Shown: piece after piece, positions 44,590 to 53,568 of the stretch
How the letters are laid out: each line of letters begins with the position of its first letter
Numbering within the stretch: the first letter of the stretch is position 1
Assembly (NCBI RefSeq): GCF_000270245.1
Contig: NC_015635.1
Location: forward strand, 1,054,001-1,118,000
Direction of reading: 5' to 3'
Source: Microlunatus phosphovorus NM-1
GTDB taxonomy: Bacteria; Actinomycetota; Actinomycetes; Propionibacteriales; Propionibacteriaceae
Length of the DNA: 64,000 nt
The notes under the pieces: generated by a model
Seen by the model: only the letters and a program-made list of their open reading frames with translations
Database searches by the model: none
What the model was told of the DNA's origin: nothing
Translations under genes and position numbers: made by a program

Positions 44590-44721
44590 CACGCTCCGTA
44601 CGCGGGCACGTTACAATCGCTTTACGAAACTTCAGTGGCGATTTTTTGTGCACACGTACAACCTGGTGCCAACTCCAGATCGTGGGATCTGGAGCTGGCT
44701 CACTGGTCGAAGGGTCACGAG

Positions 44722-46281
44722 ATGTCCTTGGCTGCCACTAGCACTGGCTCCGATGATCGGCCTCGCTCGGCAGCAGCCGGCATCGACGCGCTGCGGCCGT
44801 TCGACGGTCGCGCCACTGCGGCGGCCGCGGCGACGAAGCGTGTGCTGCTGGGACGTCTGCACACCGAGGATGCCGCCTCCGCGGTCGCCCGGCGGCTGCG
44901 GACAGCGATCGGTCTGGGGGTCTTGGCGAACGGGGAGAAACTGCCGCGCGAGATCGATCTCGCCAGGCAGCTGGGAGTCACGGCGTTCTCGCTGCGCGAA
45001 GCGTTGGGCACCCTGCGGGCCGAGGGGCTGATCGTCACCCGGGTGGGCAAGAACGGCGGCAGCTATGTCGCCCACACGCCGGTCGGCGATGCGGTGGTCG
45101 GCGAGGAGCTGCTGCGTTGGTCGGCGACCGAGCTGCGCGATCTCGGCGACTGGCGGGCAGCACTGACCACGTACGCCGCCTGGCTGGCGGCACGGCGAGA
45201 TCCGGTGGTGACTGCGGACCGGCTGCTGGCCTGCGCAGCGGAGTTGGCGGCGGCCACCGGCGCGGCCGAAGGACGACGGGCGATGGGTCGATTCCATGTC
45301 GAGCTCTCCGCTGGTGCCCAGTCCATGCGACTTACCCGTGCCGAGCTGGTTGCCCACGAGGAGTTCGACTGGCTGGTTCAGGTGCTGCTGCGTGGGCCGG
45401 TGCACCGCCGGGTCATCGCGGGCAAGATGCGGATGGTCGCTGACGCGGTGCGCTCCGGCGATCCCGCCCAGTCATGGGCGGCTGGGCAGATGATGGTGTC
45501 CTGCGTCGTGACCGAGCTGCTGCGTACCCGACTGCAGCTGATCGCGCTGCAGTACGCCAAGACGCGCGACGACGACCTGTTGGGGGACGGCGATCCGGCC
45601 GCCGAGATCCGGACGGTCTTCGAACGAGTGGTCGGCCAGCTGGACGAGATGGGTCGCGATGTCGCTGCTGCCTTCGATCAGCCCCTGGGCAGGCAGCCGT
45701 TGAGTGCTCAGTTGCTCGGCGCCGAGGTGGCTCGCAGCGTCCTGCCACGGATGAGCCAGCTGGACGACCTCGTGTACGGACTCGGGTTCATGGCTGAGGT
45801 CGGTGTGGTGCCCGACGCACAGTATTGGCTGGAGTGGTGGCAGCGTGCCGCGGATGGCACCTTCGATCGCGACTTCCGTCATGAGCTGGACCCCAGCCGC
45901 GACGACTTCTACGAGTATGGATCCAAGGGTTACATGGCCCGGCCACGCGAGACCGGGGAGCCGACCGCCATGGGTCCCTACATCGATCACGGTGGTGTCG
46001 ACGACTATCTGGTCACGGTCTCGATGCCGGTGCAGCACGACGGCTCCTTCGTCGGCATCATGGCCGCCGATATTCGGGTGGCCGACCTGGAGCGAGTGCT
46101 CTCGCCTTGGCTGGCGCGGGCGAACGGCATCGGTGTCGTGTTGAATGCCGAGCGGAGGGTTCTGGTCTCGAACTCCGTGCGCTTCGAGGTGGGCGACGTC
46201 GTTCCGCCCGAGGCCGACCCGGGGCTGACCGAGGTGGGTTGCTTCGGCTGGTTGATCGGGCGGACGGCAGACGCCCCCTGA
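44722..46281 (+). CDS. One-component regulator: GntR winged helix joined to a soluble Cache-like sensor (paralogue 1)
   Basis: 519 residues. A GntR winged helix occupies residues 50-116 (EDAASAVARRLRTAIGLGVL, then ARQLGVTAFSLREALGTLRA). A helical FCD-like region follows. The C-terminal part, about residues 330-500, looks like a PDC/dCache sensor: YWLEWWQRAADG, HELDPSRDDFYEYG, MGPYIDHGGVDDYLVTVSMP and GIMAADIRVADLERVL. There is no membrane segment, so the sensor is cytoplasmic, unlike most Cache proteins. The aromatic cluster YWLEWW could suit a quaternary amine, which is inference. A TACAAT at 44612-44617 is a possible -10. The ATG at 44722 is chosen; an in-frame start at 44635 would add 29 residues. 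Confidence 0.8.
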   Translation: MSLAATSTGSDDRPRSAAAGIDALRPFDGRATAAAAATKRVLLGRLHTEDAASAVARRLRTAIGLGVLANGEKLPREIDLARQLGVTAFSLREALGTLRAEGLIVTRVGKNGGSYVAHTPVGDAVVGEELLRWSATELRDLGDWRAALTTYAAWLAARRDPVVTADRLLACAAELAAATGAAEGRRAMGRFHVELSAGAQSMRLTRAELVAHEEFDWLVQVLLRGPVHRRVIAGKMRMVADAVRSGDPAQSWAAGQMMVSCVVTELLRTRLQLIALQYAKTRDDDLLGDGDPAAEIRTVFERVVGQLDEMGRDVAAAFDQPLGRQPLSAQLLGAEVARSVLPRMSQLDDLVYGLGFMAEVGVVPDAQYWLEWWQRAADGTFDRDFRHELDPSRDDFYEYGSKGYMARPRETGEPTAMGPYIDHGGVDDYLVTVSMPVQHDGSFVGIMAADIRVADLERVLSPWLARANGIGVVLNAERRVLVSNSVRFEVGDVVPPEADPGLTEVGCFGWLIGRTADAP

Positions 46282-48529: not shown

Positions 48530-48563
48530 ACACCTGCCCACGGAGATCGTGGGCAGGTGTTTC
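48530..48563. terminator. Bidirectional rho-independent terminator
   Basis: Perfect 13 bp stem ACACCTGCCCACG / CGTGGGCAGGTGT (48530-48542, 48548-48560), a 5-base loop, followed by TTT on the plus strand. It serves the stress-protein gene and the convergent GntR-Cache gene. Confidence 0.8.
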
Positions 48564-50109
48564 AGTTGTGGGGCATATCGCCGGCTGCTCGTCCGAGCCG
48601 CCAGCCGAAGCAACCGAGATCGGTGAAGACCAGGCCGGCATCCGGCGGGATGAGGTCCCCGACGTTGAACTGAGCCGAGTTCGACAACAGGACTCGTGAG
48701 TCGGCGTTCAGCACGACCGAGTCGCGCTCGGCCTGGGCCAGCCAAGGAGACAACGACCGTTCCAGGGTGGCGATGCGCAGATCCGCGGCCATGATGCCGA
48801 CGAAGTTGCCCTCGCCTCCTTCACCGACCCGCGTGACCGGCACCGACACCGTGATGATCGTCTCTCCGACGCCGCCGTGGTCGACGTAAGGACCCACAAC
48901 GCTGGGCTTGCCCATCAGCCGGGGTTGCGTCAGGTAGTCCTTGATGCCGTAGTCGTAGAAGTCATCGCGGGACGAGTCCAGCTGATGGGTGTAGTCGCGA
49001 TCGAAGGCGCCATCAGCTGCCCGCTGCCACCATTCCAGCCAATACGGAGCCTCCGGCAGCATGCCGACCTCGGCCATGAAGCCGAGCCCGTACACGACCT
49101 CCGGCAGATCGGCGAGCTGGGGCAGCACGCGGCGCGCAACCTCGGCGTTGAGCGCCTGGGCGGTGGGCTGACGCTCGAAGAAGGCGCCCAGCTCCGCGGC
49201 TATCGCCTGCAGTGTATGGACGGTCCGGTCGAGGATGGACCGGAGCTCTGCGGCCAGGTCACCGACACGGTCGTGCTCGGTGCCCCCGGACCTGGTGCGG
49301 GTGGCGATCATCTGCAGACGAGTCCGCATCAATTCGGTGACTTGGTAGGACACCAGCTGCTCACCCGCCTGCCACGCCGCGGACTCATTGCCGGCCCCGA
49401 CCGACGTGGCGATGGCCTGCATCCGGGTTGCCACAGCCTGACGGTGAGCCTCGTCGTGCAACAGCACTTGGACCAGCCAGTCGAACTCTTCGTGGGCGGC
49501 CAGCTCGGCGCGAGTGAGCCGCATGGATTGCGCGCCCGCAGACACCTCGACCTGGAACCGCCCCAGCGCGCGGCGTGCCCCTGCCGAGCTGTCGGTGGCG
49601 ACCATCTCCTCGACATAGGTGGTGAGGAGGTCACCGGTGGTCTTGGGCGCTCGCCTGGCAGCGAGCCGCGCAGCGTAGGTGGTCAACGCAGAGCGCCAGT
49701 CACCGAGATCACGCAGCTCCGTTGCCGACAACCGCACCAGTTCCTCGCCGGCCATCGACTCACTACTGGGCGGGCGCTCGACGTAGCTACCGCCGTTCTT
49801 GCCCACCCGAGTCACGATCAGGCCCTCGCTGCGCAGGATGCCCAATCCCTCTCGCAGGGAGAAGGCCGTGACACCCAGCTGCTTGGCCAGGTCGACCTCC
49901 CTCGGCAGCTTCTCGCCGTCACTCAGCACCCCGATCCCGATGGCCGTACGCAACCGTCGGGCGACCGCTGACGCCACGTCCTCGGTCTGCAGGTGGCCGA
50001 ACAGCACACGCTTCGTGGTCGCGCTGCCGGACTGCGGGCTACTCCTTGGCAGCTGGATCACCCCCTGCTCGATGCGGCAGGGGGATATCCCGACTGCCGA
50101 GACTCGCAT
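48562..50109 (-). CDS. One-component regulator: GntR winged helix joined to a soluble Cache-like sensor (paralogue 2)
   Basis: A 515-residue paralogue of the protein at 44722, similar along its whole length: winged helix (EDVASAVARRLRTAIGIGVL, then KQLGVTAFSLREGLGILRS), the middle LRLTRAEL/AAHEEFDWLVQVLL region, and the Cache-like end (YWLEWWQRAADGAFDRDYTH, VVGPYVDHGGVGETIITVSV, GIMAADLRIATLERSL). The YWLEWWQRAADG cluster is conserved in both copies. No membrane segment. The ATG at 50109 lies only a few bases after a TATGAT -10 box, so the mRNA may be leaderless. Confidence 0.82.
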   Translation of the reverse strand: MRVSAVGISPCRIEQGVIQLPRSSPQSGSATTKRVLFGHLQTEDVASAVARRLRTAIGIGVLSDGEKLPREVDLAKQLGVTAFSLREGLGILRSEGLIVTRVGKNGGSYVERPPSSESMAGEELVRLSATELRDLGDWRSALTTYAARLAARRAPKTTGDLLTTYVEEMVATDSSAGARRALGRFQVEVSAGAQSMRLTRAELAAHEEFDWLVQVLLHDEAHRQAVATRMQAIATSVGAGNESAAWQAGEQLVSYQVTELMRTRLQMIATRTRSGGTEHDRVGDLAAELRSILDRTVHTLQAIAAELGAFFERQPTAQALNAEVARRVLPQLADLPEVVYGLGFMAEVGMLPEAPYWLEWWQRAADGAFDRDYTHQLDSSRDDFYDYGIKDYLTQPRLMGKPSVVGPYVDHGGVGETIITVSVPVTRVGEGGEGNFVGIMAADLRIATLERSLSPWLAQAERDSVVLNADSRVLLSNSAQFNVGDLIPPDAGLVFTDLGCFGWRLGRAAGDMPHN

Positions 50110-50114
50110 CCCGG

Positions 50115-50120
50115 ATCATA
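50115..50120 (-). promoter_or_regulatory. -10 box TATGAT for a probable leaderless transcript
   Basis: TATGAT on the minus strand ends 5 bases before the ATG at 50109. The usual distance from -10 to transcription start puts the first base at or next to that ATG. No good -35 seen. Confidence 0.5.
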
Positions 50121-50153
50121 GCCGTTGGGCTCGCTCGGTTTGCCCACGACGAA

Positions 50154-50191
50154 CGAAGGGCTCGGCGGGCGAATGCCCGCCGAGCCCTTCG
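50154..50191. terminator. Strong stem-loop, 17 bp
   Basis: Perfect stem CGAAGGGCTCGGCGGGC with its complement (50154-50170, 50175-50191) around GAAT. It lies downstream of the LQR-motif operon and upstream of the GntR-Cache gene, insulating the two. Confidence 0.75.
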
Positions 50192-50256
50192 TCTCGAGTC
50201 CTTCCGGCTACAGCCGATCCGTTCACGAATGGATTCAAGGTCGGAGACATCTGGGC

Positions 50257-50289
50257 CTGAGCAACCTCCATTCCTGGTGGGTTGCTCAG
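50257..50289 (-). terminator. Stem-loop at the end of the LQR-motif operon
   Basis: CTGAGCAACC (50257-50266) pairs with GGTTGCTCAG (50280-50289). The stop codon of the small LQR-motif gene lies inside the stem. Confidence 0.55.
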
Positions 50290-50492
50290 CTGCCCGCCTC
50301 CTCCTCCGGATCCAGAGTGTGACGTTGAACGGCGAGCAGGTTGGCCACGGCAGCGTTGCCGGCGTCGCGTTGTAGCTGCAGGAGAGGGTTGGCGAGGATC
50401 TCGCTGCCTGCTTTGGACGGCTGGTCTGACTCGGTGTCTCGACGCTCAGCCCTCGCGGGCCGCCGCTGGTGCTCGGATTCCATGCTTTCCAT
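50286..50492 (-). CDS. Small LQRxxGNxAV-motif protein (injection-system-associated motif)
   Basis: 68 residues, highly charged at both ends. Residues 40-53 are LQRDAGNAAVANLL, followed by AVQR. This motif is known from N-terminal regions of many bacterial proteins found with extracellular contractile injection systems, often beside DUF4157. Apart from the motif there is no recognisable domain, so the protein might act as a tag, adaptor or regulator. The ATG at 50492 follows GAGG; an ATG at 50483 is possible. It is the last gene of a three-gene operon, with a gap of 5 bp. Confidence 0.75.
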   Translation of the reverse strand: MESMESEHQRRPARAERRDTESDQPSKAGSEILANPLLQLQRDAGNAAVANLLAVQRHTLDPEEEAGS

Positions 50493-50497
50493 AGGTT

Positions 50498-51019
50498 TCA
50501 CCTCGATCGAGTGGGGGTGGTGAACGCTCCGGTCCGCTCCGCGTACGCCTCCTGCGTCATTGGCGGATACAGCCAAACAGCCTGATATCCGAGACCGGCG
50601 CCGTCGAAGACGGTGAGGCCGCGGCTGAGGTAGCAACGCTGCTCGCTGCCTGGGAACACGCCGCTGCCATGCGGATGGACGACGGTGGGGTCGCCGAGCT
50701 TGTCGATCACCTCGGGCCACGACGGCACCGCCGGTGGTTGGGAGAGCTGTACGAGCTCGAGCCGACCGTCGAGTTGCCAATGCCAGCGGACCGGGTACGG
50801 CTGGGTTGGGATGGACGTGACGGCGCCAAGCAGGTCGCGGCCCATGAGCCGTGCGGGGCCCGGGGTGAGCGCAACGCCGAGCGCTTCGCCCACGACGTCA
50901 GGGCTCAGCCCCGGCGACCACCGCCAGCGGTCGTACTGTCCGGCGAGGGCTGCGAGGAGCAGTGGCACACCGTCCGGCTGCGCTGTAGGTGGCGGTTCTG
51001 TGCCGGTGGTTGGCGTCAT
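50498..51019 (-). CDS. Hypothetical protein in the LQR-motif operon
   Basis: 173 residues, Pro- and Trp-rich, without signal peptide or membrane segment. It reads like a small soluble alpha/beta protein (YPVRWHWQLDGRLELVQL; VPSWPEVIDKLGDPTVVHP). I do not recognise a family. The ATG at 51019 overlaps the stop of the metallopeptidase-like gene by 4 bp (ATGA), so the two are translationally coupled. A chaperone, loading factor or immunity partner for the large protein is conceivable but unsupported by motif. Confidence 0.7.
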   Translation of the reverse strand: MTPTTGTEPPPTAQPDGVPLLLAALAGQYDRWRWSPGLSPDVVGEALGVALTPGPARLMGRDLLGAVTSIPTQPYPVRWHWQLDGRLELVQLSQPPAVPSWPEVIDKLGDPTVVHPHGSGVFPGSEQRCYLSRGLTVFDGAGLGYQAVWLYPPMTQEAYAERTGAFTTPTRSR

Positions 51020-52851
51020 CGTGGCAACCTCCCTCCGCCGAGCACGGCGGTATCGCCGCGGAAGTAGGCGGCCTTCATGTTGGCGGCACCGAAGTAGTTC
51101 TCGAGCGCGATCGCCTCCGTCAGCTCAGGGTAGTGCGAAGGGGCTCCGCCGACCGCGGCCATGTCCACCGCGGTGTCGGCCGGCCCCTGCACAGTGGTGC
51201 GGAGTGCCTGGTTGGCTCTGATCTCCTGCGGGTAGACGCTCTGCCAGGTTCGAAGCGTGAAGAGATCCGTGAAACCCTCTTGGTACGTCGTCACGTGGTG
51301 CGAGTCGCGCAGCGCGCCGTACCAGGCGTTGTAGGTGGGGTGTGCAGTGGTGTGCAGATACTCGTGGATCATCGTCTTGAACAGGCCCCAGTAGATGCCC
51401 CGGGTCGCCGCTGGAGTGGCTCCTTGCCGGGCGGCCACCGAGACTCGGCCCATCGTCTGCACGCCGGGCCACATCCGATCGATCACGCCCAGCCGACGGG
51501 CTCGCTCCGCTCCGGCGACCCCGGTGCCCGTCATCGCTGCGATCTCGTTGGGTGCCGCCGGCGCGGACCGGTTCGAGTAGTGGTCGATGACCCGATCCTC
51601 GATCGCGCGAGCTGCCGTGGCGTCCTCGAAGGAATGATGCGCGTCCTGCACCGCGCCGACCGCATCGCCGCCACCACCTTCCCGGACCATCCATCGGGCC
51701 ATGTCGTAGGGGTCGCCGACGATCGTGCCACGGTCCTCCAGAGTGCCCGCGGAGAACGTCATGCTCGGTGCGGCGGCTGACCCGAACATCCCGTAGAGCG
51801 CATCCACCCGGCGCTTCGCTTCGGCCGCGATGCCTTCGACATGGCCTCCCGCCGCCGTGTCGAGACCTGCTCGGGCGTCCATCGGTCCGGCCCACGCCCA
51901 GTTGCTCATCATCTGCGCGTGCAGCGCTGTGGTGAGGTCCTCGTAGTACTGCGCCGGCTGGAATGTCGGGGCCGGACCGCCTGAGGCGGCAGCGGCAGCC
52001 CGGGCGGCCCGCGTCGTCGGTGGCGTGAGGATCTGCTCGACTCCCAGTTCGCGCGCAGCGTCCGAGGCGGTCACGCCGGCGGTCGTCGGGGCGGCGATCT
52101 CCTGGGCGAGGCGTGCCAGGAAAGCGCGGACCGGTGTCAGACCGGCGGGCAGTCCGGCGCTCGGGTTCCGGGTCAGCACGGCATTGATCGCGGCCAGCTT
52201 GGTCGGACTTTGAAGTGCGGCTCGCAGCCGGTCCTCGGACACCCGGGAGGCGACGACCAGGCCGTGCTGGGGTCGAGTCGAGCTCGAGAACAGCGTCGCG
52301 AGCCGGTTGCCGAGGTCGGCGGTGGTCCGGGTCCCGGCAACCTCGGACTCCTCCGTCGCGAACAGGCCTTCGATGGTGACCAGCGCGGCTTCCTTCTGCG
52401 CGTCCAAGGCGCTCGTCCACCAACCTCCTGCCTGGTGCGCCCGCCACCTCGCGATAGCCGTTTCCAGATCGCGCAGCGTACGGCTTCGTCCCGCCATGTC
52501 GTCCGCGCGGAGGGCGCTGTATGCGGCGACAAGCGTCTGGATCGGCTGCCAGTAGGTGGCCGACCCGGCATATCCGGCGACCAGCCCGACGGCCGGACTT
52601 GCGGACCAGATCGCGGGGCTGCGTTGCAGGTGGGGACTGGGTCCGATTGCTCCGGTTCGCGCCTGCCCTGCCAGGAGTGAGGCCACGGCGCCGTTGCCCG
52701 CCGTGCGTTGCAGTGAGGCCAGCCAGCTCTGTTGGGTGACGGCGGTCGCAGCCGGTGTGATGCCATCCAGCTGATCGTGCCCACCGGGGATCGCCTGCCG
52801 CGATGTCGGCCTCGACCTATCAGGTGGGGTGTCTTGCTTGGGGCCGGCCAC
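51016..52851 (-). CDS. LQR-motif protein with HExxH metallopeptidase motif, candidate injection-system cargo
   Basis: 611 residues. A disordered N-terminus is followed by LQRTAGNGAVASLL at 47-60 and a further HLQRSP. The middle is Ala-rich and helical. Near the C-terminus, HEYLH at 496-500 and Glu525 in TTYQEGFTDLF fit a gluzincin zinc protease. No signal peptide, so export by a special route or intracellular action. The LQRxxGNxAV motif links it to proteins associated with extracellular contractile injection systems, but no sheath, tube or baseplate gene is in the window. The GTG at 52851 has a weak ribosome binding site, so the start is less certain. Confidence 0.75.
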   Translation of the reverse strand: MAGPKQDTPPDRSRPTSRQAIPGGHDQLDGITPAATAVTQQSWLASLQRTAGNGAVASLLAGQARTGAIGPSPHLQRSPAIWSASPAVGLVAGYAGSATYWQPIQTLVAAYSALRADDMAGRSRTLRDLETAIARWRAHQAGGWWTSALDAQKEAALVTIEGLFATEESEVAGTRTTADLGNRLATLFSSSTRPQHGLVVASRVSEDRLRAALQSPTKLAAINAVLTRNPSAGLPAGLTPVRAFLARLAQEIAAPTTAGVTASDAARELGVEQILTPPTTRAARAAAAASGGPAPTFQPAQYYEDLTTALHAQMMSNWAWAGPMDARAGLDTAAGGHVEGIAAEAKRRVDALYGMFGSAAAPSMTFSAGTLEDRGTIVGDPYDMARWMVREGGGGDAVGAVQDAHHSFEDATAARAIEDRVIDHYSNRSAPAAPNEIAAMTGTGVAGAERARRLGVIDRMWPGVQTMGRVSVAARQGATPAATRGIYWGLFKTMIHEYLHTTAHPTYNAWYGALRDSHHVTTYQEGFTDLFTLRTWQSVYPQEIRANQALRTTVQGPADTAVDMAAVGGAPSHYPELTEAIALENYFGAANMKAAYFRGDTAVLGGGRLPR

Positions 52852-52907
52852 ACCGTTATTAGTTCGCCAAGTGAAGACATGGTCAAGAGGTGGGCGGCAA
52901 CATCTCA

Positions 52908-52945
52908 GTGAAAGATTTGGTGCGACGTCGCACCAAATCTTTCAC
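52908..52945. terminator. Perfect 38 bp palindrome at the TetR stop codon
   Basis: The left half GTGAAAGATTTGGTGCGAC is followed at once by its exact complement, with no loop. It overlaps the stop codon of the TetR gene and lies 57 bp upstream of the LQR-motif operon start. It is either a terminator for the TetR gene or a binding site. Confidence 0.65.
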
Positions 52946-53568
52946 AAGCTTCGGCTGTTCGTGGTCCGCAGGGCGCCCAGGGCCATCTGCTGGAGAAGAT
53001 CGGCCATTTCGGCCCGGCGCAGCCGTGCGCTGTGGGGAGTGGAGTTGATCAACCCGAAGGTGGCGTGCGCGGCCGAACGGGCGCGGGTCTCGTCTCCTCC
53101 CACGGCTGCGCGGATGGCGCGTACCCAGAGCTCGACATAGCGTCGCTGCAGGTCCCGCACGGAGTGGCGGTCGGGTTCGGCCAGGCTGGCGACGTCGCGA
53201 AGCTGCACGGTGATGAGGGCCGGGTGCGCCAGCGCGAACTCCACGTGCCAGCCGATGAGTGCCTGCAGCACCGCGTCCGGACCTGCTGCCGCCGCCTCGT
53301 CAGCTCGGCGCTGACCCTCCGACAGCAGCCGTTCGCTGATGCCGACCAGCATCTCGCCGAGCAGCGCCTCCTTGCTGGCGAAGTGCTTGTAGAGGGCGGC
53401 GCCCGAGATACCCAGGGCAGCGCCGAGGTCATAGACCGAGACGCCGTGAAAGCCGCGCTCGGCGAACTGGGTCGCGGCCACCGCCAGGATCTGTTCCCGG
53501 CGCGATGTGCTCGGGCGGGTCTCGCCGCTGCTGCGGCCTGAGTTGGCGGTGCGGCCTGGGTTGGGCAT
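52942..53568 (-). CDS. TetR-family regulator of the branched-chain acyl-CoA operon
   Basis: 208 residues. The helix-turn-helix is ILAVAATQFAERGFHGVSVYDLGAALGIS (in part), then GAALYKHFASKEALLGEML. The ligand domain is all-helical. It diverges from the fadE-maoC-citE-accD1-accA1 operon, and the 85 bp between them hold TTAACC inverted repeats that look like its operator. TetR proteins at such operons commonly respond to acyl-CoA. The start is at 53568. Confidence 0.92.
   Translation of the reverse strand: MPNPGRTANSGRSSGETRPSTSRREQILAVAATQFAERGFHGVSVYDLGAALGISGAALYKHFASKEALLGEMLVGISERLLSEGQRRADEAAAAGPDAVLQALIGWHVEFALAHPALITVQLRDVASLAEPDRHSVRDLQRRYVELWVRAIRAAVGGDETRARSAAHATFGLINSTPHSARLRRAEMADLLQQMALGALRTTNSRSL

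Follow-up and report, generated by a model that had tools for sequence, protein, structure and literature searches.

What does a three-gene operon that encodes two proteins with the motif LQRxxGNxAV do, and does it belong to an extracellular contractile injection system (eCIS) encoded elsewhere in the chromosome? The operon occurs in Microlunatus phosphovorus NM-1, in a stretch of 64,000 nucleotides (positions 1,054,001 to 1,118,000 of a single-contig genome of 5,683,123 bases; the whole stretch is here called the window), with its genes at 1104 to 1107 kb. In our assessment, the operon is likely a remote cargo cassette of an eCIS ~0.7 Mb away, within a dispersed arsenal of proteins that share a loading tag. 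An initial annotation of this DNA had raised the remote cassette as one possibility. It is now the best-supported reading, based on the full eCIS in the same genome, the co-occurrence of motif and eCIS across genomes, and the nearest relative of the operon, which lies in an Ornithinimicrobium genome (G687) with the eCIS marker Pvc16 and six motif matches.

The three minus-strand genes form an operon-like block, as follows.

51016-52851, minus strand: gene of the 611-residue protein, GTG start; a predicted tagged effector with a hydrophilic N-terminus, the LQR tag, a middle region, and a C-terminal HExxH metallopeptidase-like domain
52684-52713, minus strand: tag LQRTAGNGAV, residues 47-56 of the 611-residue protein (scored by construction, being itself a row in the profiles)
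50498-51019, minus strand: gene of the 173-residue protein, whose start overlaps the stop of the 611-residue gene (ATGA)
50286-50492, minus strand: gene of the 68-residue motif-only protein (tag plus AVQRHTLDPEEEAGS tail), with an ATG after GAGGTGA, 5 nt past the 173-residue gene; its counterpart is the 65-residue third gene of Ornithinimicrobium (L005:12207-12404)
50346-50375, minus strand: tag LQRDAGNAAV, residues 40-49 of the 68-residue protein (also a row in the profiles)

Both the open reading frames (ORFs) and the letters bear out this arrangement of coupled genes, two with the motif, as it was first described. The mechanical ORF of the third gene extends to a TTG and would encode 164 residues. 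The start is more sensibly placed at the ATG at 50492; the matching 65-residue Ornithinimicrobium gene follows the same 5-nt gap. Neither Pfam nor NCBIfam gave a match for the 611- and 173-residue proteins or for the third (searched as the 164-residue ORF). PHROGs, PADLOC, and PDB sequences likewise gave none for the first two (some searches were by family profile), in keeping with the earlier view that the 173-residue protein has no known family. The 611-residue protein had no plasmid match, matched only its own genome among 293 genomes of the order, and matched one locus in a genome contig collection. No promoter was found in 50050-53100, and the one terminator found is at chance level.

A complete eCIS in the same genome

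The eCIS at 390 to 408 kb is complete: Tail_P2_I, baseplate J, gp25, spike, CIS_tube, two gp19 tubes, sheath, eCIS_core (DUF4157, PF13699), AAA ATPase, and Pvc16 (PF14065, our eCIS marker) are all present. Sheath, Pvc16, and eCIS_core matches also form a second, eCIS-like set at 2.43 to 2.46 Mb (L009-L011), whose eCIS_core locus shows no LQR motif. Matches to sheath, Pvc16, and eCIS_core in this genome were confined to 402.7-408.1 kb and 2430.8-2460.1 kb, with none near the window. The initial annotation had noted that no structural injection genes are nearby, which holds for these three families, and had proposed a genome-wide check for such genes and for other motif proteins. That check found the full eCIS and 15 motif proteins.

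Passages from three papers place effectors near an eCIS operon or near DUF4157 (PMC8213781, PMC11297309, and PMC12961389). The window genes adjoin no eCIS operon, and DUF4157 occurs neither in nor near the operon proteins. Identity of the 611-residue protein with DUF4157 (eCIS_core) was rejected, as it has no PF13699 domain; PF13699 matches in this genome fall only at 404.6 and 2430.8 kb.

The eCIS_core protein of the first cluster itself carries LQRSVGNAGV, 96 residues before HELTH. A scan of 33 loci, of which 31 were eCIS_core loci (chiefly the best scoring), showed the motif in 12 and not in the other 21. Its distance to HExxH is 93 to 97 residues in 11 of the motif loci and 130 in one. According to passages on Streptomyces lividans, a DUF4157 protein bridges an effector and the tube initiator (PMC13277306); a tag-bearing eCIS_core is therefore a plausible part of the loading route in M. 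phosphovorus.

The tag might instead mediate an accessory interaction with DUF4157 or the spike (chaperoning, storage, or baseplate tethering), in which case the tagged proteins would not be carried in the particle. The sharing of the tag by eCIS_core and cargo would fit such a role, as would the small DUF4157 protein of S. lividans, which in the same passages binds the N-terminus of the effector as well as the tube initiator (PMC13277306). However, that DUF4157 partner is itself tied to cargo, so this idea shades into loading, and the toxin-immunity pairs found among tagged proteins of other genomes (described below) fit delivery better than storage. We consider a purely accessory tag unlikely.

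Dispersed tagged proteins of the genome

Two profiles were used to find the motif. The first (A3), with two rows from the window, one from Ornithinimicrobium, and eight from eCIS_core loci, matched 22 places in the genome at an E value of ≤10. Twelve of these fell below 0.001, nine of them outside the profile. Two weaker matches (E values of 0.013 and 0.024) also carry the motif, a match at 1.6 has LQSAAGNRAV, and the remaining seven places showed no motif by regular expression. The second profile (A4) retrieved 15 proteins at an E value of ≤0.001, most of them by construction, as 14 of its 15 rows come from this genome; the 15th protein, which is not an A4 row, is the one with LQSAAGNRAV.

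Of the 15 motif proteins, two are encoded within 40 kb of a Pvc16 gene, namely eCIS_core and a protein at 445.8 kb (38 kb off); the other 13 are farther away. Leaving eCIS_core aside, the tag begins between residues 33 and 67 in the remaining 14. Once the tag was removed, an all-versus-all comparison of 13 tagged proteins and eCIS_core (leaving out the 68-residue protein, of which too little then remains) gave a single similar pair, the 611-residue protein and a 672-residue protein. For 13 of these 14 proteins, no Pfam match exceeded the cutoff (the 68-residue protein was searched as the 164-residue ORF), which makes them candidates for new enzyme families. HExxH occurs in 5 of 13 tagged proteins scored, with an expectation of ≤0.03 each.

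The tagged N-termini are hydrophilic, with a median grand average of hydropathy of −1.11 (14 tagged proteins) versus −0.09 (165 background genes), and have no strongly hydrophobic stretch ahead of the tag, both judged by hydropathy only. A second element, hydrophobic-Gln-Arg (hydrophobic-QR), follows the tag by 9 to 106 residues in 12 of 13 proteins and by ≤60 in 11. A classic amphipathic alpha-helix was also considered for the tag and is poorly supported, with moments of 0.30 to 0.74 at 100 degrees and maxima at 75 to 120 degrees. Because the tag is common to 14 mostly unrelated, scattered proteins and to eCIS_core, one syringe would load a dispersed arsenal.

Small genes without a Pfam match lie directly after tagged genes at L070:8399-8857 and L079:6085-6510 in this genome and are possible immunity genes.

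Co-occurrence of the motif with one eCIS lineage

Motif counts across genomes are lower bounds, because scoring was limited to 28 or 41 first-look candidates per genome. Among the 293 genomes of the order, Pvc16 was found in 47, eCIS_core in 43, and the motif in at least 13. That the motif exceeds chance is seen from A4, which at an E value of ≤0.001 gave nothing in 280 of the 293 (in larger genomes, no more than 28 first-look candidates were scored). All 13 motif genomes are Pvc16 positive and 12 are eCIS_core positive, and the motif was found in none of the 246 Pvc16-negative genomes. Counted by genus, the motif occurs in 5 of 37 and Pvc16 in 10 of 37. Within the window's genus, Pvc16 is present in 2 of 14 genomes and the motif in the same two. 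A sample of 202 genomes of the class, partly overlapping that of the order, gave at least 14 motif genomes, 13 of them Pvc16 positive, and 30 genomes with Pvc16. Pvc16 and motif matches also coincide in G673, and G599 has neither.

The motif was concentrated in genomes with high-scoring Pvc16. At a best Pvc16 score of ≥120 bits, it was found in 12 of 18 genomes (order) and 12 of 16 (class); below 120 bits, it was found in 1 of 29 and 0 of 10, respectively. The class figures leave out the window's own genome and three genomes also in the order sample. Of at least 51 matches in the order, 15 lie within 40 kb of Pvc16, 26 lie farther off on the same contig, and 10 lie on another contig. The corresponding figures for at least 35 matches in the class, which leave out the own genome and include G702, are 14, 2, and 19; location on another contig says nothing on distance. 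On these sequence matches, the motif accompanies one eCIS lineage rather than eCIS in general. The initial claim that it marks eCIS-associated proteins thus stands insofar as the motif tracks eCIS across genomes and needs to be narrowed to a single lineage.

The 611-residue protein and its relatives

Three further features of the 611-residue protein bear on its predicted role.

52621-52629, minus strand: second element LQR (hydrophobic-Gln-Arg), residues 75-77, 28 residues past the tag
51352-51366, minus strand: HEYLH, residues 496-500, zinc-site motif; HEY(L/I)H in 4 of 4 aligned family members
51265-51279, minus strand: EGFTD, residues 525-529, with candidate third ligand Glu525; Glu-Gly in 4 of 4 aligned family members

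The aligned family consists of the 611-residue protein, its Ornithinimicrobium counterpart (60% identity), a protein of G481 (31% identity over the alignment), and, from the window's own genome, the tagged protein of 672 residues encoded at 225.8 kb (25% identity across 294 residues; E value of 1e-11). HExxH with a downstream Glu, as in gluzincins, is kept in all four, which confirms the initial description of HEYLH. In a search of 396 genomes of the phylum, the family matched the own genome, G481, G599, and G673, the last two by the N-terminal part alone. The G481 protein has LQTAAGNAAV, seen by eye and not reported by profile A4.

We propose that the 611-residue protein would be the effector, with LQRxxGNxAV and the following hydrophobic-QR in its hydrophilic N-terminus acting as loading tag. 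Activity would reside in the C-terminal HExxH...EG domain, most likely that of a zinc peptidase directed against a competitor's envelope. A cell-wall target is our guess, because the 672-residue and G481 proteins have PG_binding_1. The same domain in two of the four family members could also indicate an ordinary cell-wall peptidase set, with the tag a functionless leftover of domain shuffling. Retention of both the tag and the motif-only protein in two genera, hydrophilic N-termini with no strongly hydrophobic stretch before the tag, and the lack of the motif in the Pvc16-negative genomes of the order all argue against this, and we regard it as highly improbable.

The 173- and 68-residue proteins

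Ornithinimicrobium retains all three genes, so that the triple operon exists in two genera. The 173-residue protein, 57% identical to its Ornithinimicrobium counterpart, is probably an immunity protein or a loading partner. A small gene lies directly downstream of the tagged gene in all four family members, with clear homology only between the window and Ornithinimicrobium. The small genes after the G481 and 672-residue relatives match each other weakly (BLASTP E value of 0.001, a single comparison).

The 68-residue protein had been described as almost only the motif, which is correct as far as its content goes; the comparison corrects its standing to that of a conserved third gene. The 65-residue counterpart has LQQQIGNQAVSRLIAVQRHSLDPEEEAGG versus LQRDAGNAAVANLLAVQRHTLDPEEEAGS in the window protein, and the last 30 codons of the two genes differ by 10 silent and 10 residue-changing differences. 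In its combination of tag and tail, the protein resembles the ends of eCIS_core proteins, where QR-acidic repeats follow the tag. Such a protein, a tag with an acidic QR tail and no cargo, may be a loading helper. A tag with a short tail and no cargo domain is also what a remnant of a lost effector would look like, an origin compatible with the cargo-cassette reading for the other two genes. Decay of this kind is improbable in view of the Ornithinimicrobium counterpart, which is likewise the third gene, begins 5 nt past the second, and has an almost identical tail.

Tagged proteins in other genomes

A motif ORF was found in 61 of 66 loci, 6 called core and 55 not core. HExxH occurs in 25 of the 55 noncore ORFs, versus 0.55 expected from shuffles (19 of 49 without six core-like ORFs). 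Hydrophobic-QR lies within 80 residues of the tag in 32 of the 55 (2.1 expected); as background, 12 of 191 genes have it within their first 120 residues. Ten tagged proteins from other genomes gave one Pfam match over cutoff, DUF922 in G230, and another G230 protein falls just below the DUF922 cutoff.

Two tagged proteins resemble toxins with adjacent immunity genes. A 181-residue protein of G275 (L124) contains a CdiA-CT RNase A domain (PF18431; 3.2e-29), and the overlapping next gene matches CdiI_2 (PF18593; 3.6e-6, 28.1 bits versus a cutoff of 26.7). The gene of the 181-residue protein lies ~0.6 Mb into a contig of 2.63 Mb; the Pvc16 gene of that genome is on a different contig. In G516, an in-cluster protein with the variant MQATAGNAAV matches PT-HINT (1.9e-7), and the gene after it matches Imm26 barely above cutoff (7.2e-5).

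Such pairs also bear on the possibility that tagged proteins act inside the producing cell, in programmed death or development, with an intracellular contractile injection system (CIS) as in Streptomyces coelicolor. A cytoplasmic CIS that mediates cell death has been published for Streptomyces, according to passages of that paper (PMC10066040). CdiI_2 and Imm26 beside tagged toxins, as well as the peptidoglycan-binding domains, point instead to competitors, and action inside the producer appears unlikely to us.

A tagged protein of ~1330 residues occurs both near and far from eCIS genes. It lies inside the cluster in G002, between the AAA ATPase and sheath genes; by coordinates, it lies ≤10 kb from Pvc16 in G016, G046, G087, and G099 and 17 kb away in Ornithinimicrobium. 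It is remote in G230 (353 kb), G275 (another contig), and G516 (740 kb). The G230 protein is 96% identical to the G275 copy and 52 to 71% identical to the other copies named here over 370 to 579 residues; the ORFs compared were truncated at the edges of the retrieved loci. G695 has a further relative (46%), encoded near the Pvc16 gene of that genome.

Two further observations concern the surroundings of tagged genes. At L119:7386-8967 (G160), three adjacent genes with Phage Tail Collar domains lie near a tagged 899-residue protein. At L126:2550-3800 (G023), short ORFs come after a tagged ORF of 98 residues, which may mark a broken effector gene.

Other features of the eCIS clusters and the window

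A low-complexity protein is encoded between the tube genes of the own eCIS (L007:1732-6198, minus strand), with similar proteins in L177, L180, L181, and L182. In these five clusters (own genome, G160, G002, G230, and G516), it has 731 to 1488 residues and 9 to 18 hydrophobic-QR copies versus 0.28 to 0.92 expected, with no Pfam match in any of the five. A role as rail or as processing site can be guessed.

A PAAR gene (L076:2766-3083; 1.4e-18) at ~151.8 kb of the own genome is far from both eCIS regions and one gene away from a 700-residue tagged protein with HEYGH at 155 kb. PAAR-like ORFs lie inside the cluster in G160, G002, and G230. Single-sequence searches, which distant PAARs can escape, found no such ORF in the own genome at 375-415 or 2420-2480 kb. 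The 20 kb searched in G516 also gave none, and the cluster there may extend beyond this stretch.

Within the window, two similar regulators (44635-46281, plus strand; 48562-50109, minus strand) with GntR and FCD matches and subcutoff Cache-like C-terminal matches flank a major facilitator superfamily transporter and a universal stress protein.

Evidence for and against a loading tag

We infer that the tag is a loading signal from its distribution and from the genes that neighbor tagged proteins. The AAA ATPase, tube, or spike would then be the docking partner, and the 173-residue protein would be the cognate immunity protein or a loading partner.

Several observations weigh against the operon as remote cargo. 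The hypergeometric probability for co-occurrence in the order (1e-11) overstates independence, as the genomes are related. G702 has one weak motif match (4.4e-4) and no Pvc16 match. In G481 (270 contigs, 94% complete), the effector, the following small gene, and four motif matches (E value of ≤0.01) were found with no Pvc16 match. The high-scoring Pvc16 subtype lacks a motif match in 6 of 18 order and 4 of 16 class genomes. Many matches are not remote, as 15/51 in the order and 14/35 in the class lie within 40 kb of Pvc16; in the own genome, one seemingly far protein (2415.8 kb) has the second eCIS_core match 15 kb away. The count of HExxH among the 55 noncore tagged ORFs takes in homologous copies found in different genomes, as well as three ORFs from the window's genome or its operon relative. 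The second QR element is absent in 23 of the 55 and in 1 of the 13 own proteins. Beyond Ornithinimicrobium, homology of the 173-residue partner to the small genes that follow the G481 and 225.8-kb relatives was examined by profile comparison and is unsupported (hhalign probability of ~1%). Finally, a cell-wall target would require an exported immunity protein.

We hold more tentatively a broader proposal, possible at best: LQRxxGNxAV with hydrophobic-QR may be the loading code of the eCIS lineage throughout the class, the QR-repeat protein between the tube genes a multivalent rail or processing substrate, and the motif-only proteins trans adaptors. If so, any protein that acquires both elements would become cargo, whatever its gene position.

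Implications and comparison with known systems

According to the passages cited here, the search for eCIS cargo has so far concentrated on the neighborhood of eCIS core genes. Should the tag prove to be a loading signal, cargo would be findable anywhere in a genome by a 28-residue profile, the candidate arsenal of this bacterium would rise to 14 proteins besides eCIS_core, and cargo choice by actinobacterial eCIS would become testable via a short defined sequence. In the literature searched, partly in excerpt and apart from supplements, subscription papers, and preprints, no description of the LQRxxGNxAV motif or of dispersed eCIS cargo was found, nor anything for motif strings, LQR with contractile injection, or Microlunatus with contractile injection.

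The eCIS-associated toxins (EATs), as presented in passages of two papers (PMC8213781 and PMC11297309), resemble the window case in their hydrophilic N-terminus and presumed particle loading, and the tagged set as a whole in toxin domains and immunity genes. In these passages, however, EAT searches leaned on closeness to the eCIS core and on DUF4157, whereas the window gene lies ~0.7 Mb off, lacks DUF4157, and was recognized by its motif. Sle1/Sle2 of the S. lividans SLP likewise involve an actinobacterial CIS with a small DUF4157 protein tied to cargo; Sle1 differs in being tape-measure-like and encoded beside the structural genes, and the passages contain no LQRxxGNxAV (PMC13277306). The signal peptides of PVC and Afp are also N-terminal leaders that load cargo, with involvement of the AAA ATPase Pvc15, but the passages describe them by polarity, charge, and disorder rather than by a conserved LQRxxGNxAV (PMC11297309, PMC10598620, and PMC11495950).

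The G275 tagged protein and its next gene represent the same pair as CdiA-CT RNase A and CdiI (PF18431 and PF18593). Its toxin domain differs from CdiA in following an LQR tag within 181 residues, with no CdiA stem. A parallel for the marker itself comes from type VI secretion, in which the short conserved MIX motif reveals effectors scattered over the genome. The tagged set is likewise revealed by a marker, although machine and motif differ and the likeness we draw is not one of homology.

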